Part shown: in pieces, positions 24,700-39,390 of the stretch
Position numbering within the stretch: the stretch's first letter is position 1
Layout of the letters: the number at the start of each line of letters is the position of its first letter
Assembly: GCA_014529675.2 (NCBI GenBank)
Contig: CP076040.1
Location: 4,739,501 to 4,803,500 of the forward strand
DNA length: 64,000 nt
Reading direction: 5' to 3'
Source: Opitutia bacterium ISCC 52
GTDB lineage: Bacteria > Verrucomicrobiota > Verrucomicrobiia > Opitutales > UBA2995
Notes under the pieces: generated by a model
Seen by the model: the letters and a program-made list of their open reading frames with translations, nothing else
The model's database searches: none
What the model was told of the DNA's origin: nothing
Position numbers and translations under genes: made by a program

Positions 24700-24830
24700 A
24701 GATCCTATGAGTAGGATTAAAAAGGGGGATTAAGGTGGAAGGTCGTTTGCCTCGGATCAAATAAAAAAGAGGGAAATCGGGAAGCAAGGTTTTGCTTTTC
24801 CGCAATGGGATTATCAGGCAGAAACAGGGT

Positions 24831-25376
24831 ATGGCATTTGGCAATTCCAGGTATTCATCCTCGCCCCAGGGACTTGTTTGGTTGGCGAGTGTGGTATTTC
24901 TGATCGCAGGGTGTTTTTTAGTATTGCTGGTTTATGTATCGTTTTCAGGACCGGGTGAAATCTCCAGAGCGAAATCGTGGGAGGTGGATGAAGCCTTGGT
25001 TATAGAATGGATGACGAAAAGTGCTGAGGCTGAGGAGGCATTCAGGCGAGACTATGCCGTAACTCCCGATCATCCGCAGGTGTATGATAACCTGGAGTCA
25101 GCAATTGGGTATCAGCGAAAACTTAAAGCCTTGGATTTGGGGGATACTTTTGGGTCAGTAACTCGGTTAGCAATGCTTCTTCAGTTGTTTGAGGACACAA
25201 AAGGGAATACTCTCCATGCTATTATAAAAAGAAATGGGGACCAGGCTGCAGACCTAGTGGCTCGAGGAGATGCGATTTCCGCCATGCCTTTACTAGAAGA
25301 GTCTTTGGAGTATCAGCAATGGATAAACAACCAACCCATAAATATTGCTAGTCCAACACTGGGTAGAAATAAATAA
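24831..25376 (+). CDS. Hypothetical membrane-anchored protein, 3' end probably aberrant
   Basis: I do not recognise a family. From the ATG at 24831 it would have 181 residues; a TTG at 24792 gives 194. One hydrophobic helix at about 15-39 (LVWLASVVFLIAGCFLVLLV) anchors a soluble part rich in short helices, of TPR-like character near ARGDAISAMPLLEESLEYQQ. The last 15 or so codons (INIASPTLGRNK) read antisense through a well-conserved part of the convergent GT-C gene, so they are unlikely to be original. The true stop may have been lost when DNA between the two genes was deleted (junction near 25313-25325). Confidence 0.6.
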   Translation: MAFGNSRYSSSPQGLVWLASVVFLIAGCFLVLLVYVSFSGPGEISRAKSWEVDEALVIEWMTKSAEAEEAFRRDYAVTPDHPQVYDNLESAIGYQRKLKALDLGDTFGSVTRLAMLLQLFEDTKGNTLHAIIKRNGDQAADLVARGDAISAMPLLEESLEYQQWINNQPINIASPTLGRNK

Positions 25377-26401
25377 TAATCTGCTATGGGCCCATTGCGG
25401 AGCGGGATGACATTGGCCATGGGAAAGAGTGCCAAAGCAAACCAGGTAATGCCTAAAAACTGTTTGGGTGCCTTCTTATAATTCACCAGACTTAATACTC
25501 CAATACTTGCTACCAGTGCAGCGGCTGCGATTACCAATAGCTTATGATTATCGGGGTTGAACATGATCAGAATACCCTGTTGTCCGAATGGCCAAAGCCA
25601 GCGAATGGCATGGTAGAGATACATCCATCCAGAACAAAGGCTCACCCAGAAATCGGAGTCCGATGGGATGGTCGTAGCGATATCGAATGTTGCAACCCCG
25701 CCATGGATTTTTCGAAGCATTAGATAGAGTCCGAGCACCAATACTGAAAGGGCATAAAAGACCCAATTGCGTTTGTCCTTTAAGCGTTCCTGGTTGAGGA
25801 CGAACTCTTTGAGACCAAGAAGCACCGGAGCTGTGATGGATGCCTCATACGAAAAGCAAGCCATGGCAAACATCAGGAGAGCAGAAAACTTCCAAATGTA
25901 AGCTTTGTTCTGTGCGCCTGACTGATCGAGCGCGTAGCTCTTTTCATAGAAAAGAAAGTATAAGAAGAAGCCATAGCCTCCGATCAGGATGTTGGTGCTG
26001 CTAATCCAGCTGACGACCGTGGTGAGGGCTGGGGCACAGGCCCACAATGCAGTGCTGAACAGTTGCAGGTAAGGCTGGTCTTTCCAGAAAAGTCCAAAGA
26101 AACGGTAGACGATCGGAATGAGTCCGAGGAAGAGGACTACTGCGCTAAGTCGCCATGCTTGGTATTGGTCAGGCAATACGCTGCTCCAGGTGTAGAAAAT
26201 AAGGTTTTTTACCGGTCTAAAAAAGCCTAGGAAATCAACCGAAAAAGTGTCAGCAAATGAGGTAAAGGACGATACGTGGATGATCTGGTGATCATCGTCG
26301 AAGATCGTTTCGCCTCCGCTCTGGGTTCCGTACGCTATTCCGAGCAGCAATATCAATACACCCAGCAGTACATGCCGGGACAAAAGCACTTTGGTTGTCA
26401 T
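25313..26401 (-). CDS. GT-C type membrane glycosyltransferase-like protein, probably 3'-truncated
   Basis: Polytopic membrane protein of 362 residues with about nine hydrophobic segments. After TM1 the loop carries ETIFDDDHQI, the acidic loop where GT-C enzymes (PMT/TMTC type) place catalytic Asp residues. NVIPLRNGPIADYYLFLPSVG near the end is a conserved block of TMTC-like proteins. In those proteins this block is usually followed by more helices and a TPR region, but here the frame ends 20 residues later in LFIHC. It overlaps the convergent hypothetical gene by 64 bases. I infer a C-terminal loss. It probably transferred a sugar from a polyprenyl-phosphate donor. It is divergent from the HAD-UbiA gene, whose pathway could make such a donor. 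Confidence 0.65.
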   Translation of the reverse strand: MTTKVLLSRHVLLGVLILLLGIAYGTQSGGETIFDDDHQIIHVSSFTSFADTFSVDFLGFFRPVKNLIFYTWSSVLPDQYQAWRLSAVVLFLGLIPIVYRFFGLFWKDQPYLQLFSTALWACAPALTTVVSWISSTNILIGGYGFFLYFLFYEKSYALDQSGAQNKAYIWKFSALLMFAMACFSYEASITAPVLLGLKEFVLNQERLKDKRNWVFYALSVLVLGLYLMLRKIHGGVATFDIATTIPSDSDFWVSLCSGWMYLYHAIRWLWPFGQQGILIMFNPDNHKLLVIAAAALVASIGVLSLVNYKKAPKQFLGITWFALALFPMANVIPLRNGPIADYYLFLPSVGLAIFMGWLFIHC

Positions 26402-26536: not shown

Positions 26537-28057
26537 ATGAAAGTATCCAACACACAATCCGATCCATTCTCTATGGATACTTGCAATCCGAGGGATCGTT
26601 CTCAAGAAACGTGTCATCAATACATGAATCCTTCCCTGCCACTTTGTGTCGACTTGGACGGCACGCTTCTAGCCACCGATTGTTTGTGGGAAAGCTTCGT
26701 CCTGAGGCTTAAACAAAATCCGCTTATATTATTTCTTGTACTCTTTTGGTTATTGAAAGGGAAAGCGTTCTTGAAGAGTCGTTTAGCTTCTAAAGTGGAG
26801 CTGGATGTAGAGACCTTACCTGAGAATCCTCGTTTTCTTAACTGGTTGGCCTCCCAGGTAAATCTGGATCGAAAGATCTATTTGGTTTCTGCCAGTGATC
26901 AGGCTTTGGTCTCCTCCGTTGCAGATAAGTTTGGATTTTTTAATGAAGCCATAGGAAGCAGCGAAGGTGTAAATCTCAGGGGAAAGAACAAAGCCAAGTA
27001 TTTGGTCGATCGGTTTGGCGAAAAAGGCTTCGATTATGCAGGGAATGACTTTTCCGACCTCGCAATTTGGGCACATAGCCAGACTGCTATTCTTGTGCAC
27101 CCTTTGCCAAGATTGACGGCGAAGGTGCCAGAGCAGAATCGAGTCATTATCGAAGAAGATCGAGTCTCTGTTCCTAGAGCTTTTCTAAAGGCCATTCGAC
27201 CTCATCAATGGATGAAGAATCTGTTGATTTTTATCCCCTTGGTGACCGCTCATGTTTATTACGAAACGTCAGCCTGGATCTCTGCGCTTCTAGCTTTTGT
27301 CTCTTTTTCTTTCTGTGCCTCTGCCGTATATCTGATCAACGATTTAACCGATTTGGTTTCGGATCGCTTGCACAGCTCAAAGCGAAACCGTCCTTTTGCA
27401 TCGGGAGTTTTACCACTATACTACGGACTGATTGGGTCGCCATTTTTACTGATGTTCAGCCTGCTGATCATGATATTTGCCAATTATACATCGGGTCTTC
27501 CGGTGCTTGGTATCTACTTTTTGGCGACGTGTTTATATTCGTTTTGGCTCAAACAAGTGGCGGGTGTCGACATCATCTTTCTGGCGGGTTTGTATAGCCT
27601 GCGGCTGATCCAGGGTGGAGCGGTTATCGAAGTCGAGATTTCGGAATGGCTCCTCGCCTTTTCCCTGTTCTTTTTCCTCAGTCTCGCCCTGGCCAAACGG
27701 TTTTCCGAATTATTCAACATCAAAGAAGAAAATCGCGACAAAGCAATGAGGCGTGGATATCTCGCTTCGGATCTCAACCTCATGGCGATGCTAGGATCCA
27801 GCAGTGCTTATTTATCTGTACTGGTACTGGCACTGGCACTTTATGTAAGCAGCGAGCGGGTTTCGGGCTTATATCGACAACCGGAGTGGATCTGGTTAAT
27901 TTGTCCCATCATGTTGACCTGGGTTACGCGGCTTTGGCTGGTTACCTATAGAGGCAAAATGGATGAGGATCCTATCTCATTCGCAATCAAGGATCGATTC
28001 AGCTACGGAACGGTGCTCTTGATGGGGTTTGTGGCCTTCCTGGCTTCTCCCATTTAA
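26537..28057 (+). CDS. HAD phosphatase-UbiA prenyltransferase fusion (DPPR-synthase-like)
   Basis: Two domains in 506 residues. Residues 36-205 form a HAD phosphatase: VDLDGTLL (D39, D41), motif II VSAS (117-120), and GNDFSDL (169-175) as motif IV. From about 215 (FLKAIRPHQWMKNLLIF) comes a UbiA-type membrane enzyme with NDLTDLVSD (268-276), the N/D-D...D motif that binds Mg2+ and diphosphate, and about eight further helices. This arrangement matches UbiA proteins related to mycobacterial 5-phosphoribosyl-1-diphosphate: decaprenyl-phosphate phosphoribosyltransferase. The HAD part could remove the 5-phosphate of the product. GGAGG at 26522-26526 supports the ATG at 26537; a later ATG at 26624 sits just before the HAD domain. 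A DprE1/DprE2-like pair follows. Confidence 0.85.
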   Translation: MKVSNTQSDPFSMDTCNPRDRSQETCHQYMNPSLPLCVDLDGTLLATDCLWESFVLRLKQNPLILFLVLFWLLKGKAFLKSRLASKVELDVETLPENPRFLNWLASQVNLDRKIYLVSASDQALVSSVADKFGFFNEAIGSSEGVNLRGKNKAKYLVDRFGEKGFDYAGNDFSDLAIWAHSQTAILVHPLPRLTAKVPEQNRVIIEEDRVSVPRAFLKAIRPHQWMKNLLIFIPLVTAHVYYETSAWISALLAFVSFSFCASAVYLINDLTDLVSDRLHSSKRNRPFASGVLPLYYGLIGSPFLLMFSLLIMIFANYTSGLPVLGIYFLATCLYSFWLKQVAGVDIIFLAGLYSLRLIQGGAVIEVEISEWLLAFSLFFFLSLALAKRFSELFNIKEENRDKAMRRGYLASDLNLMAMLGSSSAYLSVLVLALALYVSSERVSGLYRQPEWIWLICPIMLTWVTRLWLVTYRGKMDEDPISFAIKDRFSYGTVLLMGFVAFLASPI

Positions 28058-28145
28058 AAATTCGTCAAGAAAAGGAAAAGGCTTCCTTATCTGCTTAACT
28101 TTGGAAAGAGGCGGCCTAGTGTTCGTACTTTCTCACCCTAGAATT

Positions 28146-29456
28146 ATGAACCGTTTCCAAAGCTGGGGTCGTTTCCCCAAAGCTGAACAGGATATATATG
28201 CCATGCGCTGGAAAGATGGTATGCTTCCTGATACTGGCGAAAAATCCGTACTCCCGTTCGGATTAGGACGGAGTTATGGCGATAGTTGCTTGAATAACGG
28301 GCAATCACTTGTCGAAACGTCCGGGTTGAACCGATTTATAGCCTTCGATGAAAAAGCAGGCACCCTTTGTTGTGAAGCCGGCGTATCACTGGATGAGATT
28401 CTAAAACTTATTGTTCCTAAAGGCTGGTTTCTTCCAACTACTCCAGGAACCAAATTCATTACCGTCGGCGGAGCCATTGCCAATGACATTCATGGGAAAA
28501 ACCATCATGTCGCCGGAACCTTCGGATGTCATGTAAAAGCATTTGAGCTATTGCGGTCTGATGGATCGCGAACGCGATGCACTCCAAGAACGAACTCCGA
28601 GCTATTTAAAGCAACGATTGGAGGTTTGGGGCTCACCGGTCTAATTACCTGGGCGGAGTTCCGGCTGAAGAAAATCAATAATGCCTGGATCGAAATGGAA
28701 TCGATCAAGTTTGAAGGCATTGGTGAGTTTATGAAGTTATCCAGGGAGTCAGACCAAGATTGGGAGTATACCGTTTCTTGGATCGACTGCGTTGCTCGCG
28801 GGAAAGCATTTGCCCGAGGAATATTTATGCGAGGCAATCATGCCCCAGCGATTGTCATGTCTCGAAAAGTGCATGCTGAACCTAAGCTCACCACTCCTTT
28901 CAATTGCCCAAATATGATGCTAAATTCTCTTAGTATCAAAGCTTTCAATACCGTCTATTATGGCAAGCAGCGCGCGAAGAAAGTAAGATCTCGGACTCAC
29001 TACGATCCCTTCTTCTATCCATTGGATGCCGTAAATGACTGGAATCGCATCTACGGTCGTCGAGGATTCTTTCAATACCAGTTTGTCGTCCCTTTTGAAG
29101 GAGGCTCTGAAACCATGGAGAAGATCCTGGAGAAAATTACTGTCTCCAAACAAGGATCATTCCTAGCGGTTATTAAAGCCTTTGGAGATAAAAAATCACC
29201 GGGTATGCTCTCTTTCCCGAAACCTGGGATAACACTGGCTCTTGATTTTCCAAATCGCGGGGAGTCGACTACTCAATTATTTAATGATTTAGACCAGATA
29301 GTAGATTCGGCGGGAGGCTCGGTGTATCCTGCAAAAGATGCTCGGATGAGTCCTGATTTCTTTCAGAAGGCGTATCCACAGTGGGAAGCATTTTCTAAAT
29401 TTATTGATCCCCAATTTTCCTCTTCTTTCTGGCGGCGTGTTACCGTTCAGGCCTAA
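28146..29456 (+). CDS. FAD-dependent oxidase, DprE1-like (decaprenylphosphoryl-ribose 2'-oxidase type)
   Basis: VAO-type flavoprotein of 436 residues from the ATG at 28146; the upstream in-frame extension to 28029 overlaps the UbiA gene and has no family character. FAD-binding motifs are GLGRSYGDSCLN (39-50) and GGAIANDIHGKNHHVAGTFG (108-127), which closely resemble DprE1. FFQYQFVVPF lies mid-protein and the C-terminus is basic. In the DPA route DprE1 oxidises the 2'-OH of polyprenyl-phosphoryl-ribose to a keto intermediate. A DprE2-like reductase follows after 5 bases, so the pair is co-translated, which strongly supports the assignment. Exact lipid and sugar are not proven. Confidence 0.88.
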   Translation: MNRFQSWGRFPKAEQDIYAMRWKDGMLPDTGEKSVLPFGLGRSYGDSCLNNGQSLVETSGLNRFIAFDEKAGTLCCEAGVSLDEILKLIVPKGWFLPTTPGTKFITVGGAIANDIHGKNHHVAGTFGCHVKAFELLRSDGSRTRCTPRTNSELFKATIGGLGLTGLITWAEFRLKKINNAWIEMESIKFEGIGEFMKLSRESDQDWEYTVSWIDCVARGKAFARGIFMRGNHAPAIVMSRKVHAEPKLTTPFNCPNMMLNSLSIKAFNTVYYGKQRAKKVRSRTHYDPFFYPLDAVNDWNRIYGRRGFFQYQFVVPFEGGSETMEKILEKITVSKQGSFLAVIKAFGDKKSPGMLSFPKPGITLALDFPNRGESTTQLFNDLDQIVDSAGGSVYPAKDARMSPDFFQKAYPQWEAFSKFIDPQFSSSFWRRVTVQA

Positions 29457-29461
29457 ACACT

Positions 29462-30199
29462 ATGAAAACGATCCTAATTGTGGGGGCTTATGCCTCAATC
29501 GCCGAAGAAACGGCGAAAGTATATGCCGCTCAAGGAAATCGTCTCATACTTTGGGGGCGTAGCGAAGATCGACTGAAGAGTGTTCAACAAAACTTAAAGG
29601 TATTGGGAGCGGACGATGTTCACTGGTTTGAAATCGATTTAAATCATTGTGCCGATCACGCTCCTCTGCTGGAGAAATCTATTCAGAAAGCCGGAAACAT
29701 CGACCTGGCATTGGTAGCCCATGGGACGTTACCCGATCAAAGCGCGATTGAGTCCGACTTCAGCGCTATTGAAGAAGTTATTTACACCAATTTTCTTACC
29801 TATGCATCCATACTGACGGTCTTGGCTAACTGCTTTGAAAATCAGAAGCGCGGAACCATAGCGGCCATTTCTTCCGTTGCAGCGGACAGAGGCCGAAAAA
29901 GTAATTACATCTATGGGGCTGCCAAGGCGGGTGCTTCAACTTTCATCGACGGACTTCGCGGCCGCATGGCCGTTTTCGGAGTCCATGTTGTAAACATCAA
30001 ACCGGGAACGGTGGATACGCCCATGACAGCTCACCTGGAGAAGGGGGCTTTATTTGCTCAACCCAAAGCAATAGCCACCGGTATTGTCTCAGCTATCTCA
30101 AAGAAGAAACACACCGTCTACCTCCCAGGATACTGGCGACTCATCATGTTTATCATCCGATCCATCCCTGAATTTATATTTAAGAAAACGAATTTCTAA
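29462..30199 (+). CDS. Short-chain dehydrogenase, DprE2-like (2'-keto reductase)
   Basis: Classical SDR of 245 residues. Nucleotide-binding GAYASIA (8-14) resembles the GA.S.IA form of DprE2 rather than the usual TGxxxGIG. The catalytic set is N110, Ser at 137/138 (AISSVAADRGR) and YGAAK with Y151 and K155. PGTVDTPM (about 181) and a hydrophobic basic tail (WRLIMFIIRSIPEFIFKK) suggest membrane contact, fitting a lipid-linked substrate. It starts 5 bases after the DprE1-like stop. Together they would epimerise polyprenyl-P-ribose to polyprenyl-P-arabinose. A general SDR role cannot be ruled out, but the context is specific. Confidence 0.85.
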   Translation: MKTILIVGAYASIAEETAKVYAAQGNRLILWGRSEDRLKSVQQNLKVLGADDVHWFEIDLNHCADHAPLLEKSIQKAGNIDLALVAHGTLPDQSAIESDFSAIEEVIYTNFLTYASILTVLANCFENQKRGTIAAISSVAADRGRKSNYIYGAAKAGASTFIDGLRGRMAVFGVHVVNIKPGTVDTPMTAHLEKGALFAQPKAIATGIVSAISKKKHTVYLPGYWRLIMFIIRSIPEFIFKKTNF

Positions 30200-30317
30200 A
30201 CGCTTCATTCGAGGAGAGCCCAAGTATAGCCCGCCAGGGTGTGCACTTTAATCTCCTTGTATGACATTAAGCTGCCTCGATATTCTCTCACCAACTCATC
30301 CTATCACATCCTATCTT

Positions 30318-31763
30318 ATGAGCTTCCAAGAACACTTTGACTGGGTGGCTGAAAATGACGCCGGCCCTCGCAAAGCTCAGCAATCCTACCATCAGCAAAT
30401 CCAAGGCTTACTGCGTTATCATATTCCAGAGGCCTCCAAAGTTCTCGAATGGGGAACAGGTCCCGGAGAACTGCTAGAAGCTTTAAATCCTTCTCGAGGC
30501 TTGGGTGTTGATCTAAGTCCTAAAATGGTGGAGCGGGCAAAGTCTGAGCGTTCAGGTTCCAATCTCGAATTCCGACAAGGTGATTTGATGAAAGAAAGCG
30601 TAGATGAGGAATTCGATGCCGTGGTGCTCGATTACCTACCTGGCCACCTCCAGGACATACACGCTGCCATATCCAACGTGAGGCAATCCTGCCACGCACG
30701 GACGCGCCTCTATGTATTGTCTTTGAATCATGGTTGGCAGCCCCTGCTAGCAATCGGGAAGTTGTTTGGAAAGGTCGTGAAGCAACCAGAGAGCAATTGG
30801 CTTAGCAAAACCGACCTTTGCAATATTTTGGAGCTCAATGGATTTGAAGTCCTCACTCGAACCACCGAGCAAATCTTTCCTTTTCAGATCCCTTTGGTGA
30901 GTGGTTTCTTCAATCGCTTTCTAGTCAGGCTCCCATTTTTCCGCCACTTTGGGATGTCCAACTTTATCGTGGCGCGGCCAATTGCGAAACCCCCTCTTGA
31001 TGGAGATATCTCCTGTTCGGTGGTAGTCCCGGCCCGCAATGAATCTGGTAATGTCCTGGGTGCGCTCGAACGGATCCCCGTTATGGGCAAACAGACGGAA
31101 ATCATATTTGTAGAAGGCCACAGTACCGACGACACTTGGGAAGTCATCCAAAGAGAAACGGAAGCCTATGAAGGGCCCCACAATATACAGATCCTTCAAC
31201 AACCTGGAAAGGGTAAGTGGGACGCTGTGTTTGCTGGATTTTCCGTGGCTAAGGGTGACATTCTCGTAATTCAGGATGCAGATTTAACCGCTCCCCCGGA
31301 AGACCTCCCTAAGTTTTTTGAAGCTGTCGAAGAAGGCCGTGCAGAATTCGCCAATGGCTGTCGACTCGTTTATCCCATGGAGTCAGAAGCAATGCGGTTC
31401 TTGAACCTGCTTGGGAACAAGTTCTTTGCTACCGCCTTAAGTTTTGTTTTGGGACATGACATTAAAGACAGCCTCTGTGGCACAAAAATGATGTTGCGAA
31501 GCGATTACGAGCGTCTGCTCAAAAGAATCGAGGTATTGGGTGACTTTGACCCCTTTGGGGATTTCAATTTGTTGTTCGGGAGTGCCATGTTAGACCTGAA
31601 GATTCGCGATGTGCTCGTACGTTACAAGGATCGTGCATATGGAGATACGAATATTTCTCGTTTCAGACATGGCTGGATTTTGTTGAAAATGACTTTCTTT
31701 GGATTAAGAAAAATTAAGTTCTTCCCTTCATTCTATCGAAAAGAGCCGAGAAATCTGAAGTAA
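30318..31763 (+). CDS. Methyltransferase-glycosyltransferase 2 fusion protein
   Basis: Two catalytic domains in 481 residues. The start is the ATG at 30318 (MSFQEHFDWVAENDAG); the longer frame from 30261 lacks family character. Residues 25-150 form a SAM methyltransferase with VLEWGTGPGELLEAL and VDLSPKMVERA. From about 230 a family-2 glycosyltransferase of the dolichyl-phosphate sugar synthase type follows: SVVVPARNESGNV, IIFVEGHSTDDTWE (with E in place of the usual D), GKGKWDAV, VIQDADLTAPPEDLPKF, and FANGCRLVYPM. Its normal product would be a polyprenyl-phosphate hexose, or a sugar directly modified. It is downstream of the DprE1/DprE2 pair (118-base gap) and upstream of a GT-C gene. Confidence 0.83.
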   Translation: MSFQEHFDWVAENDAGPRKAQQSYHQQIQGLLRYHIPEASKVLEWGTGPGELLEALNPSRGLGVDLSPKMVERAKSERSGSNLEFRQGDLMKESVDEEFDAVVLDYLPGHLQDIHAAISNVRQSCHARTRLYVLSLNHGWQPLLAIGKLFGKVVKQPESNWLSKTDLCNILELNGFEVLTRTTEQIFPFQIPLVSGFFNRFLVRLPFFRHFGMSNFIVARPIAKPPLDGDISCSVVVPARNESGNVLGALERIPVMGKQTEIIFVEGHSTDDTWEVIQRETEAYEGPHNIQILQQPGKGKWDAVFAGFSVAKGDILVIQDADLTAPPEDLPKFFEAVEEGRAEFANGCRLVYPMESEAMRFLNLLGNKFFATALSFVLGHDIKDSLCGTKMMLRSDYERLLKRIEVLGDFDPFGDFNLLFGSAMLDLKIRDVLVRYKDRAYGDTNISRFRHGWILLKMTFFGLRKIKFFPSFYRKEPRNLK

Positions 31764-31810
31764 AATTCACATCTGCCCTTCGTGGGGTCCTCCTCGTCAC
31801 TGCGGGATAT

Positions 31811-33691
31811 TTGTTTATTTACCAACTATGGTACAGTGCCCAGCCTATGGGTCTTGATCCAGTTCTGGACGGCAAGCAGAACATTCTGATTGCGGAAAAG
31901 ATGTATGAGGGAGAGTCCTTTGACCAACCCTTTCACCGAGCGCCTCTCTATCCGTATCTTATTTCTCTAGCACGGCATATTAATGTACTGGACTTGCCGG
32001 TTGCATTGGTTGCCCGTGGGATGAACAGCTTTTTTGTATTAGTGACTACCTTCTTCACCTGTCAACTAGCTTGGCTCGTTTGGAAGAGAAGGTATGCAGT
32101 TTGGTTTGCCGGTATAGCGGTTGGCTGTAATCCGGTCATATTATTTTTTGCAGGGGACCCGTTGGACATAACGATTGCGACATCCTGTTTTATGATTGCT
32201 TGTTGGTCTGCTTACCGAAGTTATCGGTCCAGAAGATTTCGGTGGGGACTATACCTGATAGGCAGCTTGGCTATCGGAGCTGGTATGGCGCTGCGCTCTC
32301 ATCTTATACTTATAGGTTTATTGTGGCCCGTAATTCACGGTCTTGTAGCCTTGCGAAACAAGAGTACGCGGAAACCTATTTACATCGGATTGGCTTTTGC
32401 GATCGGCATCATTGGTCCTGCCTCTTCCTTCATAGGTGTTGGATTGGGCAATAAAGTTGCTGCGGGGGAATTCCGCATGATGCCCTGGGGAGGTGCTTAC
32501 TTGTTATGGGCTGGAAACGGAGAGCTAAATAACGGTCGTTATTATGAGCAGACCGTGGATGTCGATTTTGAAGATGGAGAGTATCAGAATCCCAGCATTT
32601 TAGAATCCATTTACTACTACGTCGATGAAACGCGGGAGGAACCTCCGTATGACATTGATGCGATGAATGACTTTTTCATGAAGGAAGCCATTGATGAGAT
32701 ACTAGACGATCCAGTGCAATGGATTGGATTGATGTTTCGAAAGACTCACAGTCTGGTGCACAATTATGAGCAGTACGACAATAAGACCTACTCACTGCAA
32801 AAGTCCGATTCTCCCTTTCTGAGATTCAATCCGATCGGTTGGGGATTATTATTTCTAGCTGCTGCAACTGGAGCCTGTATTTTGTATTCAGACCGAAAGA
32901 GTACTTTCTGGGGACTATTGTTAATCTTTGGCCTCTACGCGATCATGGTTCTGTCCACATTTACAGCTAACCGATATCGTGTTCCGCTGATACCGATTCT
33001 AGCAATTCTGGCTGCGGGGCTTCCAAAAATATATTTTCGCTCCGATCGCGTTTCAAAGCGTCAGAAGGTCATTATGATTTATGTGGGCGGGGTTGTCGCC
33101 ACCATTACCTTCATCCCTTTTTTCGGCATAGCCGCTAAAGACACCTATCTGGGAGATTACGCATTGATGGCGAACGCCGCTCACCGCAGAGGTTTTGATG
33201 ATGACGCTGTCGACTGGTCACAACTTGCTCTGGAGATTGACCCCGCAAGAAGGGATATGAAGGAAATTGAGATCATTTCCCTCTTCAATACCTGGTATGG
33301 ATATGGGAAAAACTGGGTCATAACTGCTTGGGCTGAAGATTACCTCAGTGAAATTGAAGAATTTAATAAAGACACCGAAGAGATAACTTACATTCGGGGA
33401 GTGTATCTGTGGAAGCTTGGTCGAGCCGAAGAGGCTTGCCGATTCTGGAAACATGCAGCTGCCACTTTTGGAGATGCGGATTCGGCCTTTGCCTTGATTT
33501 GGAACTGTGAGCTGGGCGATCAAGAGCTGGATCAACTGCCTGAATCATCGCGACTGAGAGCTAAAGCGATTAAGAACAAAGAGATTGGTTTTAAGGAAAC
33601 CCCGGGCAGTGATCCTTACACGGCCGAGACGATTCGAGACCTATCCCGGTTTTACTTGTGCGCTTTTGAACCCTTTAAAGACGAAGAATAA
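31811..33691 (+). CDS. GT-C membrane glycosyltransferase (GT39-like) with C-terminal soluble domain
   Basis: Polytopic protein with about ten hydrophobic helices (residues 1-445) and a soluble C-terminal region (about 460-626) with helix pairs of TPR-like style (YIRGVYLWKLGRAEEACRFWKHA). QPMGLDPVLDGKQNILIAEKM after TM1, then FHRAPLYPYLISL, fit the acidic first loop of GT39/ArnT-like enzymes that use polyprenyl-phosphate sugars. The given start is TTG at 31811, which cuts TM1 in half. The same frame is open back to 31718 and encodes SALRGVLLVTAGYLF, a complete TM1, but has no ATG, GTG or TTG there (an ATT lies at 31730). The real start is therefore uncertain. Confidence 0.8.
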   Translation: MFIYQLWYSAQPMGLDPVLDGKQNILIAEKMYEGESFDQPFHRAPLYPYLISLARHINVLDLPVALVARGMNSFFVLVTTFFTCQLAWLVWKRRYAVWFAGIAVGCNPVILFFAGDPLDITIATSCFMIACWSAYRSYRSRRFRWGLYLIGSLAIGAGMALRSHLILIGLLWPVIHGLVALRNKSTRKPIYIGLAFAIGIIGPASSFIGVGLGNKVAAGEFRMMPWGGAYLLWAGNGELNNGRYYEQTVDVDFEDGEYQNPSILESIYYYVDETREEPPYDIDAMNDFFMKEAIDEILDDPVQWIGLMFRKTHSLVHNYEQYDNKTYSLQKSDSPFLRFNPIGWGLLFLAAATGACILYSDRKSTFWGLLLIFGLYAIMVLSTFTANRYRVPLIPILAILAAGLPKIYFRSDRVSKRQKVIMIYVGGVVATITFIPFFGIAAKDTYLGDYALMANAAHRRGFDDDAVDWSQLALEIDPARRDMKEIEIISLFNTWYGYGKNWVITAWAEDYLSEIEEFNKDTEEITYIRGVYLWKLGRAEEACRFWKHAAATFGDADSAFALIWNCELGDQELDQLPESSRLRAKAIKNKEIGFKETPGSDPYTAETIRDLSRFYLCAFEPFKDEE

Positions 33692-33746: not shown

Positions 33747-34433
33747 ATGTCCGACGGATCTTCAGCAAAAAAAATTAAGCTTCTGCTCACGGCCACACTT
33801 TGCGGTGGCGGCATTGTTTTTTTGGCTTTGTATTTTACCGATCTAGAAATCGCGGATATCAAGAATTGGATTCAGTACTGGACGGATGAGATTCAAACTT
33901 GGCCAGCCATACTTTTCTTTTTGATGGTAGCTTTGTTACCTTTAATTGGTTTTCCCATTTCTCCATTGTTCATAATTGCAGGGATTCGATTCGGTGCAGC
34001 CTGGGCGATTCCGTTTTCACTGGCTGCATTAGCAGTCAATCTGGCGTTGGCACATTGGATTAGCACTAAACTTCTCCACTCCACTATTCAAAAAATCGCC
34101 ATAAAGTGGGATTACGACATTCCCAAGGTGGGACACGAGAATGCCAAAAAATGGGTCTTGGTAATTCGCCTCTGCGGAGCTCCTTTGGCGGTTCAAAACT
34201 ATATTCTTGGATTATCCTACGTTCCATTTTGGCCATATCTGTGGGTATCCTTGGCGGCACAGGCCCCGGTGGTGATTGGAATCATCATTTTTGGAGAATC
34301 TTTCCTGACCGGAAATGTGGGAAAAGCGCTTTTGGGCCTCGCAGTGCTTGTCATTGCCTTGGTAGCTGTTTCTTTTTTGAAGAAACGCTATGCCCAACCG
34401 AAATCAGGATCTGTTGATACCTCCGGCGGATGA
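33747..34433 (+). CDS. TVP38/TMEM64-family (VTT domain) membrane protein
   Basis: Inner-membrane protein of 228 residues with about six hydrophobic segments. LPLIGFPISPLFIIAGIRFGAAWAI (about 64-88) is the VTT signature (F/P.P.S.L...AG..FG). The second half carries LVIRLCGAPLAVQNYILGLSYVPFWPY, matching the R..P..P....N...G motif of DedA/TVP38 proteins, which act as lipid scramblases or flippases in the best-studied cases. Such a function would suit the polyprenyl-lipid genes upstream, but the gap of 55 bases and the 44-base overlap with xseA may simply reflect compact packing. The start ATG is preceded by a T/C-rich stretch with no SD. Confidence 0.85.
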   Translation: MSDGSSAKKIKLLLTATLCGGGIVFLALYFTDLEIADIKNWIQYWTDEIQTWPAILFFLMVALLPLIGFPISPLFIIAGIRFGAAWAIPFSLAALAVNLALAHWISTKLLHSTIQKIAIKWDYDIPKVGHENAKKWVLVIRLCGAPLAVQNYILGLSYVPFWPYLWVSLAAQAPVVIGIIIFGESFLTGNVGKALLGLAVLVIALVAVSFLKKRYAQPKSGSVDTSGG

Positions 34434-35742
34434 AATTGAGTCCGTTACTGAGTTTACCAAGAAGGTAAAGTACCTGCTCGAAACTGAAATCGGTGGTGCT
34501 TGGATACGGGGTGAGGTTTCAAACCTCAGGCGCCAAGCAAGTGGCCACGTTTACTTCTCGCTTAAAGATGAGGGGAGTCAGGTATCTTCTGTTTTATTTC
34601 GCAATGATGCTTACAAGCAAAGCGTTGATTTGGAGGATGGTATGCAAGTGGTCGTCTTTGGGCAAATCAGTGTCTACGAACCTCGGGGTAATTATCAACT
34701 GATCGTTCGCCTGGTAGTGCAAGATGGGTTGGGTAAGCTGCAACGTGAATTTGAACGATTGAAAGCGCAGCTCCTTGAAGAAGGACTTTTCGACGAAGAC
34801 ATAAAAAAGCCAATTCCGACTTTTCCAAGAGCGGTTGGAATCATCACTTCTCCAACAGGAGCCGCCGTTCAGGATTTTATTCGGATCCTAAAACGTCGGG
34901 AGTGGGTTGGACACATCCTCGTGCTACCGGCAAAAGTGCAGGGGGAAGGTTCGGCCGAGGAGATCGCCAGCATGATCGACTTTGCGCAAAAGCTCTCTGG
35001 TTTGGAACTCTTGGTGGTTGGGCGTGGAGGTGGAAGCTTGGAAGACCTGTGGGCGTTCAACGAGGAAGCCGTTGTTAGAGCTATTCATCGATCGGACCTG
35101 CCTGTCATTTCGGCTGTGGGTCATGAGATTGATTTTACACTATCAGACTTCGCATCCGATATGAGGGCTGAAACCCCTTCAGCGGCTGCAGAAGTGATAA
35201 GCAGTCACTATCTGGAATTAATCGATCGCTTTGATACGGCTGCCGACAATTTGGCCTATTGGACGAGCGATGGCCTGCAAACGAGAAAGGACTCGATCGA
35301 GCAGCTTCAACGTCGGCTGCAGTTACTGTCCCCGGTTAGCCGGATTGAGCAATCCCAGTTAAGGGTCGACGATCTTTCCAGTCGGCTTGCGTCAGTTTTG
35401 AGCTCCTCATTTTTGGAATATCGGAACCGATTATCGGAGGCCAAGCTGACCATCCAGACTGCCGATCCCAGTTCCAGGATCAAGCGATACCGACTGCAGG
35501 CTCAATCGGATGGGCATCGATTGCTCGCAGCTATGAGCTCGGAATTTATGGAAAAGAGAAGCCGCCTCTATCGGGCGGAATCGTTGCTGCGTTCTCTGAG
35601 TCCGGAATCTATTTTAAACCGGGGCTTTGCCATTATTCGCGACGATGTAGGTCGTCCAATTACGTCTAGGAAATCCATTCAATCCGGAGATAAAGTCACC
35701 GCAGAATTCAAAGACGGTGAAGCGAACTTGCTTGGGGAATAG
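34390..35742 (+). CDS. xseA: Exodeoxyribonuclease VII large subunit
   Basis: Catalytic subunit of ExoVII, which cuts single-stranded DNA to acid-soluble oligonucleotides from both ends. An N-terminal OB-fold (about 18-115) shows ETEIGGAWIRGEVSNLR and SGHVYFSLKDEGSQV. The nuclease core contains VGIITSPTGAAVQDFI, LVVGRGGGSLEDLWAFNEE and ISAVGHEIDFTLSDFASDMRAETPSAAAE, all hallmark motifs. A long coiled coil (about 280-400) follows, and the C-terminal LNRGFAIIRD block closes it. The 450 residues are normal. It overlaps the VTT gene by 44 bases in another frame. xseB does not follow; a terminator does (35798-35829). Confidence 0.96.
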   Translation: MPNRNQDLLIPPADEIESVTEFTKKVKYLLETEIGGAWIRGEVSNLRRQASGHVYFSLKDEGSQVSSVLFRNDAYKQSVDLEDGMQVVVFGQISVYEPRGNYQLIVRLVVQDGLGKLQREFERLKAQLLEEGLFDEDIKKPIPTFPRAVGIITSPTGAAVQDFIRILKRREWVGHILVLPAKVQGEGSAEEIASMIDFAQKLSGLELLVVGRGGGSLEDLWAFNEEAVVRAIHRSDLPVISAVGHEIDFTLSDFASDMRAETPSAAAEVISSHYLELIDRFDTAADNLAYWTSDGLQTRKDSIEQLQRRLQLLSPVSRIEQSQLRVDDLSSRLASVLSSSFLEYRNRLSEAKLTIQTADPSSRIKRYRLQAQSDGHRLLAAMSSEFMEKRSRLYRAESLLRSLSPESILNRGFAIIRDDVGRPITSRKSIQSGDKVTAEFKDGEANLLGE

Positions 35743-35852: not shown

Positions 35853-37013
35853 CTACAGTTTAGGAAACTTCGTCCACTTAGTCTTAGATTTGCTGGACTT
35901 CACAACGGACTCAATAAAGGCCATTCCGTAGATACCATCATCAATGGTTGGAAAGTCATAGGACTTCTTGGGCTTCTTTCCATTTACTTCATCCCAAATG
36001 GCTTCGGCTGCTCCCAGATACACATTCGCAAACGCTTCAATGAATCCTTCTGGGTGAGCAAAGGGAGTTCGTGAATTGTTTTGCGCGGCTTTTCCTAAGT
36101 AGTCGTTTCCGCGGCGAAGAATCTGACGCGGTTTATCTGCATACTTAATGATAAGCTCATTGGGATCTTCCTGATGCCACTCAAGAGATGATTTAGTACC
36201 GTAGGCGCGGATCGTGAGTGCGTTTTCGTCTCCATTGGAGATTTGAGAAGCATAAAGGATTCCCTTGGCACCTCCCTTGTAGCGGATGAGCACATTGCCA
36301 TCATCATCCAGTTCACGGCCAGGGATAAAGGCTGTGAGCTCAGCACAGAGTTCGTCAATTTCCAGGCCGGTGATGTAGTGGACCAAATTCTCTGCATGAG
36401 TTCCGATGTCTCCCATGCAATTGGATGCACCCGATACATTTGGGTCGGTTCGCCAAGAATTTATTTTGGTTGGGCCCTTTCGATCCACATCGCCAACCGC
36501 ATAACCCTGTGGGTATTCGACGACGACTTTGAGGATGCGGCCTAATTTACCCTTCTTAACAAACTCCTTGGCTTCCTTCACCATCGGATATCCGGTGTAG
36601 TTATGCGTGAGCGCAAATACCTTCCCGGTTTTCTCAACGACTTTCTTGAGTGCCTTGGCTTCCTTCAGATTAATACCGAGTGGCTTGTCGCAGATCACAT
36701 TGATCCCCGCATTCAGAAACGCTTTGGCAACAGGCACATGAAGGTTGTTGCGAACAACAATACTCACGAAGTCGATCCTTTGGTCAGCTGGTAGAGCTGC
36801 TTCCTTTTTCGCCATGTCCTCGTAGGAGGTATACACGCGCTTCGGATCGAGAAAGAAATCCTTGCCGGACAATTTTGAAGTTCTGGCTTTAGATGAGAAG
36901 CACCCTGCGACGAGTTCAATCTTACCATCCAGGTTTGCTGCCATGCGATGAACAGCACCGATGAAGGCTCCACGGCCTCCGCCAACCATTCCCATTCTTA
37001 ATTTTCTATTCAT
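35853..37013 (-). CDS. Gfo/Idh/MocA-family sugar oxidoreductase (1)
   Basis: NAD(P)-dependent dehydrogenase of 386 residues, third gene of a three-gene sugar unit. The N-terminal Rossmann fold has MGMVGGGRGAFIGAVH (7-22), GVNVICDKP in the form GINVICDKPLGINLKEA with the catalytic Lys of the E/DKP motif, and VRNNLHVPVAKAFL. The C-terminal alpha/beta domain contains GDIGTHAENLVHYITG with the conserved D...H. This family oxidises or epimerises sugars and cyclitols at one carbon. The likely partners are the paralogue and the TIM-barrel isomerase upstream. The substrate is unknown. Confidence 0.9.
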   Translation of the reverse strand: MNRKLRMGMVGGGRGAFIGAVHRMAANLDGKIELVAGCFSSKARTSKLSGKDFFLDPKRVYTSYEDMAKKEAALPADQRIDFVSIVVRNNLHVPVAKAFLNAGINVICDKPLGINLKEAKALKKVVEKTGKVFALTHNYTGYPMVKEAKEFVKKGKLGRILKVVVEYPQGYAVGDVDRKGPTKINSWRTDPNVSGASNCMGDIGTHAENLVHYITGLEIDELCAELTAFIPGRELDDDGNVLIRYKGGAKGILYASQISNGDENALTIRAYGTKSSLEWHQEDPNELIIKYADKPRQILRRGNDYLGKAAQNNSRTPFAHPEGFIEAFANVYLGAAEAIWDEVNGKKPKKSYDFPTIDDGIYGMAFIESVVKSSKSKTKWTKFPKL

Positions 37014-37062
37014 GCTTTAAGTAGGTATTCAGGGGTTTACTCCAAAGGTTGAAACTTTGAGG

Positions 37063-38142
37063 TTAGCACTCAACCGGCTTGCCGGTGTTTGCTGATTCGT
37101 AAAGAGCATCGATGACCTTCATCAAAGAGTGTGCCTGGTCCACGGTGTTGAGTGGCTCTTCCTTGCCTTCAATAGTAGCGACAAAGTTAGCAGCCGAACG
37201 GGAACGCCCCATGTCTTCACAGGCTTCCACAATCACTTCGCGATTTACAGAGTTTCCGCCTTCTTGCACGTAGAGCTCACAGCTATCGATGCAAGTTTCG
37301 TCGAGGCCGTCTGAACCGAAGAGGCGCTCGATCTTTCCACCGGCTCCAGTGCCTTGGAATACGACCGATACTTCCTCGCGTTTCACCATTTCTGCCCAGG
37401 AGACTTGCATGGACAAAACTTGACCGGTCTTGAAACTTACAAATCCGTGAGCGGCGCTTTCAACATCTGTGGTTCCATCGGCGTTGTCAGGAATGCCCCA
37501 GGGGCCTTTGAAGTTCTTGTCTGTGATGAAATCGTCGAATGTTGCTCCGAGAACGTATGCCGGTTCTGGGTAATCCATTAAGAACATGGCCAGGTCGACC
37601 ATGTGAAGTAGATCGATCAATGGGCCTCCACCAGCGAGTGCTTTTGTGGTAAACCATCCTCCTAAACCGGGAATGCCGGTGCGGCGAATCCACTTCGCTT
37701 GGGCCGAGTTGATTTTACCCACCGCGCCATCTGCGATGTACTGCTTCATGGCGTAGGATTCTGGGCGGGCCCGGTTGTTGAAGTTAAACATCACCGTTTT
37801 ACCTGCTTTCTCGGCAGCGGCTTTCATGTCCGCTACTTGATCTGCATTGATGGCTGGTGGCTTTTCGCAGAACGCGTGCTTTCCGGATTCCAACACCTGG
37901 ATCACCAGGGGTGCGTGAAACTTATTGGGTACAATTACGGAAATAGCATCCAGCTCCTCCATCGCCAAGATCGCTTCAACACTTCCTAGTGCTGTGGGGA
38001 TCCCGTATTTTTCAGCTGCTGCTTGTGCGGCTGGTTCATGCATGTCGGCAATAGCGACGACTTCTGCTCCCGCTTGGCGGAAACCGGCAATATGATATTG
38101 AGCCATACCTCCGGCTCCAATGACTCCTACTTTTGTGCTCAT
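37063..38142 (-). CDS. Gfo/Idh/MocA-family sugar oxidoreductase (2)
   Basis: Second oxidoreductase of the unit, 359 residues and clearly diverged from its neighbour. The Rossmann motif is VGVIGAGGMAQYHIAGF (5-21). HAFCEKPPAINADQV carries the catalytic Lys of the EKP motif. GGPLIDLLHMVDLAMFLM contains the D...H pair of the C-terminal domain. It lies 49 bases upstream of gene 1 and 32 bases downstream of the isomerase gene, all in one direction. Two such enzymes plus an isomerase suggest a 3-keto-sugar or inositol-type breakdown route. Confidence 0.9.
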   Translation of the reverse strand: MSTKVGVIGAGGMAQYHIAGFRQAGAEVVAIADMHEPAAQAAAEKYGIPTALGSVEAILAMEELDAISVIVPNKFHAPLVIQVLESGKHAFCEKPPAINADQVADMKAAAEKAGKTVMFNFNNRARPESYAMKQYIADGAVGKINSAQAKWIRRTGIPGLGGWFTTKALAGGGPLIDLLHMVDLAMFLMDYPEPAYVLGATFDDFITDKNFKGPWGIPDNADGTTDVESAAHGFVSFKTGQVLSMQVSWAEMVKREEVSVVFQGTGAGGKIERLFGSDGLDETCIDSCELYVQEGGNSVNREVIVEACEDMGRSRSAANFVATIEGKEEPLNTVDQAHSLMKVIDALYESANTGKPVEC

Positions 38143-38174
38143 ATTAAAATGCTCGTTTGTAATGGGTTCTAGAT

Positions 38175-39218
38175 CTATTGGTTCGACTTGTCGAAAGCCG
38201 CATCAAACGCCATTTCGTTGGGCTTGAAATCGACCGACTTTACGAAAGCGGCTGCTTCCTCTGCGCCATGGAATCGATCCATGCGACCGTCTTCCCATTC
38301 AACCGAAAGAGGTCCTGCGTAACCTATGTCGTTTAGTGCAACAATGATTTCTTCGAAATTGATGTCACCATGTCCGAGTGAACGGAAGTCCCAGAAACGG
38401 CGAGGATCAGTAAAGTCAGTGTGACCGCCAAACACGCCTACGCTTCCGTCACCATGACTCCACCAAACATCCTTCATGTGGGCGTGGTAAATTCTGTCCG
38501 GGAATTCTCGGATAAACTTCACGTAATCAACTCCCTGATAACCCAGGTGAGATGGATCGTAGTTAAATCCAAAACGTTTGTGTCCTTTAACTGCATCGAT
38601 GGCACGTGCTGCAGAGGCAATGTCGAAGGCAATTTCCGTTGGGTGAACTTCGAGTGCAAAGTTTACGTTCACAGCATCGAATGCATCCAGGATGGGTGTG
38701 AAGCGTTTCGCAAAGTCCTGGAAACCCTTTTCATACATTTCCTGTGTGGTTGGTGGAAATGCGTAGAGCATGTGCCAGATACTGGATCCTGTAAATCCAT
38801 TCACAACGGCCGGGAAGTCATCCTTCTTTTTGCGGCCTGGTTTCAGGTCCATAAATTTTCGGCAGGCTTTACCGGCTGCAATCATATCGCGAGCAGCACG
38901 TTTGCGAACACCCTCTGGTTTTCCGTCGCCCCAGACTTGTTCGGTGAGGATCGCCTGATGGCGTTCATCAACCAAATCACAAATGGCCTGACCCGTGAGG
39001 TGGTTGGATATTGCGTAGCAGGTAAGACCGTTGTCGGAGAGTAGCTCCCATTTCTCTTTCAGGTACTTTTTACTGCGGTTGGCTTGACGGATGTCGAAGT
39101 GATCTCCCCAGCAGGCGAGTTCGAGACCATCGTAACCCATCGCCTTCGCTTTGGGTGCTAGCTCTTCCAAGGGCAGGTCCGCCCATTGGCCAGTGAATAG
39201 GGTGCATGTTCTAGGCAT
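38175..39218 (-). CDS. Sugar phosphate isomerase/epimerase (xylose isomerase-like TIM barrel)
   Basis: First gene of the sugar unit. The start is the ATG at 39218 ([20 protein letters not shown], 347 residues); an in-frame start at 39263 adds 15 unrelated residues. [19 protein letters not shown] (about 24-42) is the strand-helix opening of AP_endonuc_2 barrels. [46 protein letters not shown] and [12 protein letters not shown] supply the Glu, His, Asp and Glu metal ligands expected at the barrel mouth. It probably interconverts keto- and aldo-forms of a sugar or cyclitol intermediate for the two dehydrogenases downstream. Confidence 0.88.
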
Positions 39219-39390
39219 AATTCTATAGGTAAAATTCTGAATTGAGTGGACAACTCCAAGCATCGCTCGGGCTGAGGTGAAAGGTTAAAAGTAAGCCGTT
39301 TTGCCCGCCGTGTTGGCAATTCAAAAAATCGAAGACTCCCTCAATAAACGAATTGTTGTCCGCAGCTAATTGAATGTATAACTTTGAGCT

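Follow-up and report, generated by a model that had tools for sequence, protein, structure and literature searches.

Organisation of the locus

We analysed a 64,000-nucleotide stretch (the window) of Opitutia bacterium ISCC 52, whose genome is one contig of 4.8 Mb. The focus is a run of genes for which an earlier note, made from the letters alone, had proposed the synthesis of a polyprenyl-phospho-pentose donor and its use by two adjacent GT-C membrane transferases. The core of the locus is a plus-strand cassette of three genes. The first encodes a PRP(HAD)-UbiA fusion (26537..28057), a putative polyprenyl-phosphate 5-phosphoribosyltransferase with its own 5'-phosphatase; the second a DprE1-like FAD oxidase, predicted to be a polyprenyl-phospho-ribose 2'-oxidase (28146..29456, in an open reading frame (ORF) open from 28029); and the third a DprE2-like short-chain dehydrogenase/reductase (SDR) of the PRK07102 family (29462..30199). 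The oxidase and the reductase are also called E1 and E2 below. The plus-strand run goes on with a protein that joins an N-terminal S-adenosylmethionine-dependent methyltransferase to a DPM1/AglJ-like family 2 glycosyltransferase (MT-GT2; 30261..31763), followed by a GT-C glycosyltransferase gene (31718..33691), a VTT-domain gene and xseA. Upstream of the cassette the order is aroA, tyrA (minus strand), the truncated ORF 24792 (plus strand) and a membrane protein gene at 25313-26401 (minus strand).

The locus was compared across a set of 88 genomes, a 288-genome sample of the phylum, and six congeners (G000 to G005, G000 being the window genome). Counts of absence of cassette genes rest on six-frame tblastn at E<=1e-5; absence judged from ORFs is weak at some high-GC loci (e.g. 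L078, L079 and L090), where antisense ORFs cover these.

The three cassette enzymes

All three cassette genes lie at the place and on the strand that the earlier note had assigned to them, and the UbiA product carries the ND..D...D motif as NDLTDLVSD. The protein matches the NCBIfam model PRK08238 (UbiA family prenyltransferase) with 586 bits (cut-off 351) over residues 29-504, so that an N-terminal HAD part is included; the UbiA domain proper, also recognised by Pfam, is C-terminal (residues ~211-504). The N-terminal part contains DLDGT, a DxDGT nucleophile motif that the note had left unmentioned. In a PDB sequence search (E<=0.01) the protein matched only DPPR synthase from M. tuberculosis (8j8j/8j8k, best E 4.9e-27), with which the NDxxDxxxD motif and KRFSEL (the R..E loop) align. 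In G002 and G004 the corresponding ORFs lack the first 29 residues, so that the true start is perhaps near 26624. Judged by these sequence features, the fusion is a putative PRP-UbiA polyprenyl-phosphoribose synthase, with predicted activity.

The oxidase was found with both motifs attributed to it, GRSYGD and DIHGKNHH, which together with YPAKD (the YxAKD motif) align with DprE1. It scores 385.7 bits against the DprE1 model NF053785, the next FAD family reaching only 41 bits, and it matches DprE1 structures in a PDB sequence search (E 2e-73). The TTG at 28029 is a doubtful start, since the oxidase ORFs of G002 and G004 open at the position matching 28146. In an IQ-TREE phylogeny of 20 rows, the window protein and 11 other verrucomicrobial sequences group at 94/99, just short of the tool's star threshold, and they belong to a 17-row group with alphaproteobacterial and M. 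smegmatis DprE1 rows at 100/100. Three other FAD oxidases fall outside this group; a fourth outgroup row (out_G008) lies inside it on a very long branch, and out_G046 was dropped as too short. The M. smegmatis row and G014 are placed with uncertainty, as long branches meet there. With its active-site and FAD motifs and its grouping with DprE1, the oxidase is DprE1-like by sequence. In the alignment the DprE1 cysteine that benzothiazinones attack, which we take to be Cys387, faces an alanine; the window oxidase is thus predicted to be insensitive to this covalent inhibition.

The reductase carries the YxxxK motif as YIYGAAK and passes PRK07102 with 285.8 bits (cut-off 267). Its best PDB match is mycobacterial DprE2 (21gq_C, E 3.1e-30). 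Profiles and PDB matches therefore bear out the relationship of the three proteins to DPPR synthase, DprE1 and DprE2. Their order (UbiA, oxidase, SDR) is shared by congeners and by members of other families, and so is more than a chance arrangement.

Distribution of the cassette and its loss within the genus

A strong DprE1-like match (E<=1e-90) was found in 11 of the 88 genomes, including the window genome, and eight of the 11 have UbiA, E1 and E2 in order (window, G002, G004, G005, G024, G042, G011 and G054). In G014 E1 alone was recognised. G037 and G052 have a shorter UbiA near E1, with E2 not found in the stretch. At these two loci (L041 and L043) a small membrane protein accompanies the shorter UbiA and the DprE1-like oxidase, in what looks like an alternative arrangement; the small protein presumably resembles a divergent PAP2 family.

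In the phylum sample, PRK08238 matches at E<=1e-40 are present in 97 of 288 genomes, and an unbroken HAD+UbiA match in 22 of them, including the window genome (a further one, in G094, is broken by stops). Both E1 and E2 lie in the fetched stretch in four of these 22 genomes (window, G054, G213 and G343). The G343 locus (L243) holds a fuller cassette, UbiA-E1-GtrA-E2, with a flippase gene and two membrane proteins. At L045 (G054) and L244 (G213) a DPM-like GT2 gene stands directly before UbiA-E1-E2, so that here, too, the two donor types share a locus; these GT2 proteins share 25.9% and 27.5% identity, respectively, with the GT2 domain of the window.

Within the genus the cassette is intact in four of the six congeners, with all three ORFs open. 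Between the window and G005 the ratio of nonsynonymous to synonymous substitution rates (dN/dS) is 0.086 for UbiA, 0.051 for E1, 0.069 for E2 and 0.072 for MT-GT2; the cassette is thus under purifying selection between these two genomes. In the other two congeners only traces are left. The G001 site has a 217-residue remnant of E2 (65% identity) before MT-GT2, with no UbiA and no E1, and the G003 site has the last 37 residues of E2 only (70%, with a stop), together with a broken remnant of ORF 24792. No strong DprE1 match occurs in the whole genomes of G001 and G003, the absence of UbiA being established at the locus. These E2 remnants, at sites without UbiA and E1, indicate that both strains probably had the cassette and then lost it. 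MT-GT2 and xseA are retained in all six congeners, including the two with only DprE2 scars, with the VTT gene in between in each. The cassette is therefore an accessory module in the genus.

Such losses raise the question of whether the window strain, too, carries the cassette only as a remnant without function, a reading that would also suit the flanking genes, which are truncated or decaying. We consider this highly improbable in view of the three open frames in four congeners, the dN/dS of 0.05-0.09 against G005 and the retained catalytic residues.

A predicted polyprenyl-phospho-arabinofuranose pathway

The homology of the three proteins with DPPR synthase, DprE1 and DprE2, together with their conserved order, points to a polyprenyl-phospho-pentose donor, for which arabinofuranose is the likeliest sugar. 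We conclude from sequence comparison that 26537-30199 is very probably a donor-synthesis cassette, most likely for polyprenyl-phospho-arabinofuranose. The UbiA domain would act as a polyprenyl-phosphate 5-phosphoribosyltransferase and the fused HAD domain would strip the 5-phosphate; the DprE1-like oxidase and the DprE2-like reductase would then invert carbon 2, giving polyprenyl-phospho-arabinofuranose. After flipping, this lipid would serve a GT-C enzyme on the outer side of the membrane as sugar donor, presumably to decorate the cell surface. We infer the individual reactions, the identity of the sugar and the flipping of the lipid from these homologies.

Several observations weigh against this assignment. 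The oxidase lies under the NF053785 equivalog cut-off of 500 bits, which is passed in none of the 88 genomes, and for this reason we name the protein DprE1-like and not DprE1; the reductase, at 182.2 bits, is likewise under the cut-off of 250 of the DprE2 equivalog model NF053786. Neither E1 nor E2 was found in the fetched stretch of 18 of the 22 genomes with a full-length PRP-UbiA protein, so that the fusion alone is no proof of arabinose. For the flipping step, no GtrA gene was detected (no PF04138 match in the whole genome at E<=0.01), and no MATE flippase is among the Pfam matches of the block, the genome itself not having been searched for MATE; no intact dedicated GT-C was recognised within the block. 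As synonymous divergence is saturated against G002 and G004 for nearly all genes (with proportions of nonsynonymous differences of 0.11-0.24 for UbiA, E1, E2 and MT-GT2), selection is measured against G005 only. Finally, G001-G005 are draft assemblies, so that stops and frameshifts in them are possibly sequence errors.

The scores below the model cut-offs and the many PRP-UbiA genomes without E1 or E2 would also fit a cassette making a different polyprenyl-phospho-pentose, i.e. ribose or another epimer, and passages of PMC11127046 describe a shared precursor from which Citrobacter youngae O1 and O2 add ribose or xylose. Both partners of a C2 epimerisation are, however, adjacent here, with mycobacterial DprE1 and DprE2 as their best matches, and in the passages of the same report DprE1/E2 homologues accompany arabinofuranose. 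A pentose other than arabinofuranose thus seems very unlikely. Thirteen phylum genomes (L230-L242) have PRP-UbiA fusions for which the fetched stretch showed no E1 and no E2; these fusions possibly make ribose donors.

MT-GT2 and its relation to the cassette

The earlier note had tied the donor to the adjacent methyltransferase-GT2 fusion. The two domains of MT-GT2 are confirmed by Pfam (PF00535 and Methyltransf_23), and G004 points to a start near 30318. The GT2 domain is closest to polyprenyl-phospho-sugar synthases and matches the dolichol-phosphate-mannose synthase structure 5mlz (E 4e-20), which we take to be the P. furiosus enzyme. By sequence MT-GT2 likely makes a polyprenyl-phospho-hexose, and the methyltransferase domain may act on that hexose.

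MT-GT2 was found in 35 of the 288 phylum genomes, and at least 560 relatives occur in a genome collection, according to the record titles in Bacteroidetes, Nitrospirae, Deltaproteobacteria, Omnitrophota and others; the closest among the matches listed are Verrucomicrobia and Puniceicoccaceae metagenome bins, with 70% identity. At the best 80 of these at least 560 loci (3.1-22.1 kb, with varying flanks; six-frame), UbiA, E1 and E2 were found at none, in agreement with an ORF-based count for these 80, and the same holds for 20 further loci (0/20; six-frame, E<=1e-5). MT-GT2 was accordingly rejected as a partner of the cassette, and the proposed link between the two is weak for a family that is spread over many phyla with no cassette gene at its best 80 loci. 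In G020, a genome of another family, MT-GT2, GT-C, VTT and xseA adjoin without a cassette, which shows that the MT-GT2/GT-C/VTT unit is able to exist without arabinose genes. These three are most likely a separable unit that would make and use a polyprenyl-phospho-hexose. A literature search over titles and abstract starts returned nothing relevant on a methyltransferase-GT2 fusion, a weak hint that such a protein is undescribed.

The GT-C genes at 31811 and 25313

The gene at 31718..33691 (31811 below, after its first start codon) has no Pfam or NCBIfam match. A profile search of the PDB with its alignment returned mostly TPR proteins, matching the TPR-like C-terminal part, and no glycosyltransferase. 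Its AlphaFold model, built from 18 sequences (pLDDT 87.6), matches ArnT (Z 21.6, root mean square deviation (rmsd) 5.1, 350 residues aligned) and, tied with it, Pmt4 (Z 21.1, rmsd 3.8, 352 aligned), then AftB (Z 17.6, rmsd 4.7, 355 aligned) and EmbB (Z 16.8, rmsd 4.5, 330 aligned). In Foldseek and VIA the arabinosyltransferases AftB, EmbB, EmbC, AftD and AftA rank below ArnT and Pmt4, which leaves the sugar undecided. Asp51 (counted from 31718), in the loop after helix 1, is invariant in the 18 sequences. By its predicted fold, the 31811 product is a member of the GT-C superfamily.

Homologues of 31811 were found in 21 of the 88 genomes, and 18 of the 21 are without a strong DprE1 match, the exceptions being the window, G002 and G005. 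Outside the genus, UbiA, E1 and E2 were found at none of the 18 loci (six-frame), and a GT2 gene directly adjoins the homologue at five of them. Within the genus the gene looks degraded. In G002 and G005 its start codon overlaps the stop of MT-GT2; in the window this ancestral start codon is lost and MT-GT2 is four codons longer, so that in a frame open from 31718 the first start is the TTG at 31811, halfway through helix 1. In G005 stop codons interrupt the gene within helix 1 and again near residue 558, G003 shows only a weak match to the start of the gene (28% over 82 residues, E 7e-7), and no match was found in G004 and G001. Only the G002 gene looks intact, the start being lost or the gene broken, a remnant or absent in five of the six congeners. 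The open part aligned with G005 has a dN/dS of 0.073, which speaks against decay. Overall, these sequence comparisons suggest that 31811 is probably losing, or has lost, its function in the genus.

The membrane protein gene at 25313 (25313..26401, minus strand) belongs to a GT-C-like family, without Pfam or NCBIfam match. The protein ends at residue 362 and lacks ~200 C-terminal residues in the alignment with the compared relatives outside the genus (569-596 aa). Homologues occur in five of the 88 genomes, including the window, and in two of the six congeners, the window and G004; the G004 copy is frameshifted at the locus, and a different contig of that genome carries a further copy. A 26-27% homologue stands beside UbiA-E1-GtrA-E2 in G343, a locus that includes a 537-aa membrane protein without Pfam match, and this distant relative keeps 25313 a candidate arabinosyltransferase.

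The earlier note had named both GT-C proteins as users of the donor, and we weighed whether 31811 and/or 25313 are arabinosyltransferases of the cassette. That 31811 stands downstream of the cassette in three congeners (window, G002 and G005), that its aligned part is constrained, that its predicted fold also resembles AftB and EmbB, and that a 25313-like protein stands beside the full cassette of G343 would favour such a role. Set against this are the 31811 family as a whole, which is found mostly without DprE1 and, at the 18 loci outside the genus, directly beside a GT2 gene at five and with a cassette gene at none, the higher rank of ArnT and Pmt4 in fold, the apparent damage to 31811 in most congeners, and the shortened, sparsely distributed 25313 protein. 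We therefore judge this role unlikely. The polyprenyl-phospho-pentose donor of the earlier note is thus supported, and its use by 31811 and 25313 is not: the former family occurs mostly without DprE1, at times beside GT2, and looks decayed here; the latter protein is short, present in two of the six congeners and frameshifted at the locus in one of them.

A GT87-type gene upstream of UbiA in G005 was also considered as a shared transferase of the cassette and was rejected, as it has no match in the window genome at E<=1e-5 (3 of 18 genomes are positive).

Flanking genes

The VTT-domain protein (33747..34433, plus strand; PF09335, 40.5 bits) is kept before xseA in the congeners and in G020. DedA-family proteins have been reported, in the portions of the literature drawn on here, to return polyprenyl phosphate to the inner face of the membrane, and by analogy the VTT protein possibly does the same. 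The exonuclease VII large subunit gene xseA (34390..35742, plus strand; TIGR00237, 462 bits) forms the right border and is outside the pathway. Next to it, at 35853-39263, are what we take, from the look of the sequences, to be two oxidoreductase-like genes and an isomerase-like gene, which keep their place beside xseA in congeners and partly in other families too. On the left, ORF 24792 (24792..25376, plus strand) corresponds to no more than the N-terminal ~170 residues of its counterpart in G001, a complete protein of 559 aa encoded beside the cassette site; the C-terminus of the G001 protein looks, presumably, like a formylglycine-generating-enzyme domain.

Type IV pilins as possible targets

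Among the best 80 MT-GT2 loci, the 18 with >=52% identity were tabulated for pilin neighbours. A co-directional type IV pilin-like gene, recognised by motif, lies 4.1-5.5 kb upstream of MT-GT2 at 10 of the 18 (L144, L147-L151, L153, L154, L156 and L163, some being the same places as L076, L083 and L084); at two of the remaining eight the upstream sequence available is shorter than 4 kb. At eight of the 10, two large ORFs stand between the pilin-like gene and MT-GT2, GT-C-like membrane proteins by eye. In G086 a pilin-like gene is grouped with a GT-C of the 31811 type and two more large ORFs. This run of pilin, membrane-protein and MT-GT2 genes in Opitutae suggests pilin glycosylation by the MT-GT2/GT-C unit. 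As a speculative extension, to which we give little weight, MT-GT2 in Opitutae could make a methylated polyprenyl-phospho-hexose with which adjacent GT-Cs would glycosylate type IV pilin, in an undescribed operon; in the window genus the arabinose cassette would share the locus, and two donors would have fed one surface glycan until partial loss.

The arabinose donor could itself serve a pilin, as in Pseudomonas, where TfpW adds D-arabinofuranose to pilin according to passages of PMC11841053. Pilin- or pseudopilin-like genes, recognised by eye, share the fetched stretch with cassette-type genes at L045 (G054), L244 (G213), L245 (G323) and L043 (G052), loci that come without a background rate. 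The pilins near MT-GT2 in Opitutae point the same way, but no cassette gene is present at the MT-GT2 loci with pilins. Elsewhere in the window genome, two pilin-like genes are followed by a PMT_2-type membrane protein; none of the genome's 13 N-methyl matches lies inside the window. Arabinosylation of pilin by this donor is thus quite unlikely in our view. The two pilin-like genes just mentioned are at G000:C1 4594800-4597715 (L224:8801-11716), and the membrane protein that follows them is of the PMT_2/DUF2142 type. A literature search found no paper on Verrucomicrobi* with pilin glycosylation.

Discussion

In this study a donor pathway that is best known as a drug target in tuberculosis is extended, at the level of predicted enzymes, to a further group of bacteria; a literature search found no paper on Verrucomicrobia with DprE1. 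Within one genus the cassette is present in four genomes and has left scars in two, and the GT-C genes are variable, as expected for a surface sugar that is subject to change. Comparison also corrected an attractive but weakly founded association of adjacent sugar genes, and brought out the run of pilin, membrane-protein and MT-GT2 genes as a lead.

All three cassette enzymes have homologues in the mycobacterial decaprenyl-phosphoryl-arabinose pathway (Rv3806c, Rv3807c, DprE1 and DprE2), which argues for the same reaction logic. The mycobacterial phosphatase is a separate protein, whereas in the window it is predicted to be the fused HAD domain, and the benzothiazinone-target cysteine of mycobacterial DprE1 is replaced by alanine. 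The alphaproteobacterial cassettes of Paracoccus pAK3 and an Azospirillum thermophilum plasmid have, like the window, a UbiA fusion, a FAD oxidase and an SDR in one run, but with GtrA inside it, for which the window genome has no match. In a plasmid collection, homologues of the UbiA protein occur in 83 records, 80 of them over >=80% of the query; the two plasmid loci that were opened hold UbiA, GtrA, FAD oxidase and SDR, and in one of these an acyltransferase gene separates the FAD oxidase from the SDR. In Azorhizobium, noeC, noeH and noeO have been proposed, by similarity to mycobacterial proteins, to serve D-arabinose precursor synthesis (passages of PMC2443382). The targets of the Azorhizobium noeCHOP and Pseudomonas TfpW systems are the Nod factor and pilin, respectively, and their likeness to the window is by description. 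As for MT-GT2, it shares its GT2 domain with enzymes of the DPM1/ArnC type (5mlz) and adds to it the N-terminal methyltransferase.

A close parallel in domain organisation is with the three-component systems of Citrobacter youngae O1/O2 (ORF12-15), in which, as in the window, the HAD (PRP) domain is fused to the UbiA phosphoribosyltransferase. According to passages of PMC11127046 (Kelly et al. 2024), the PRP-UbiA fusion ORF15 makes farnesyl-phospho-ribofuranose from phosphoribosyl pyrophosphate and farnesyl phosphate, and the sugar is then transferred by a GT-C; the same passages list candidate arabinofuranose systems with DprE1/E2 homologues and, in other bacteria, candidate systems whose glycans are not known. 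Compared with C. youngae, the window block is without a recognised MATE gene and has the extra MT-GT2. These 2024 PRP-UbiA pentofuranose systems, together with the wide spread of MT-GT2, reduce the novelty that the earlier note had claimed for the locus. The pathway of the cassette is already known from the mycobacterial system and, as far as the passages of PMC11127046 go, from the PRP-UbiA three-component systems, whose donor logic the window cassette fits; it is thus not a new kind of pathway.

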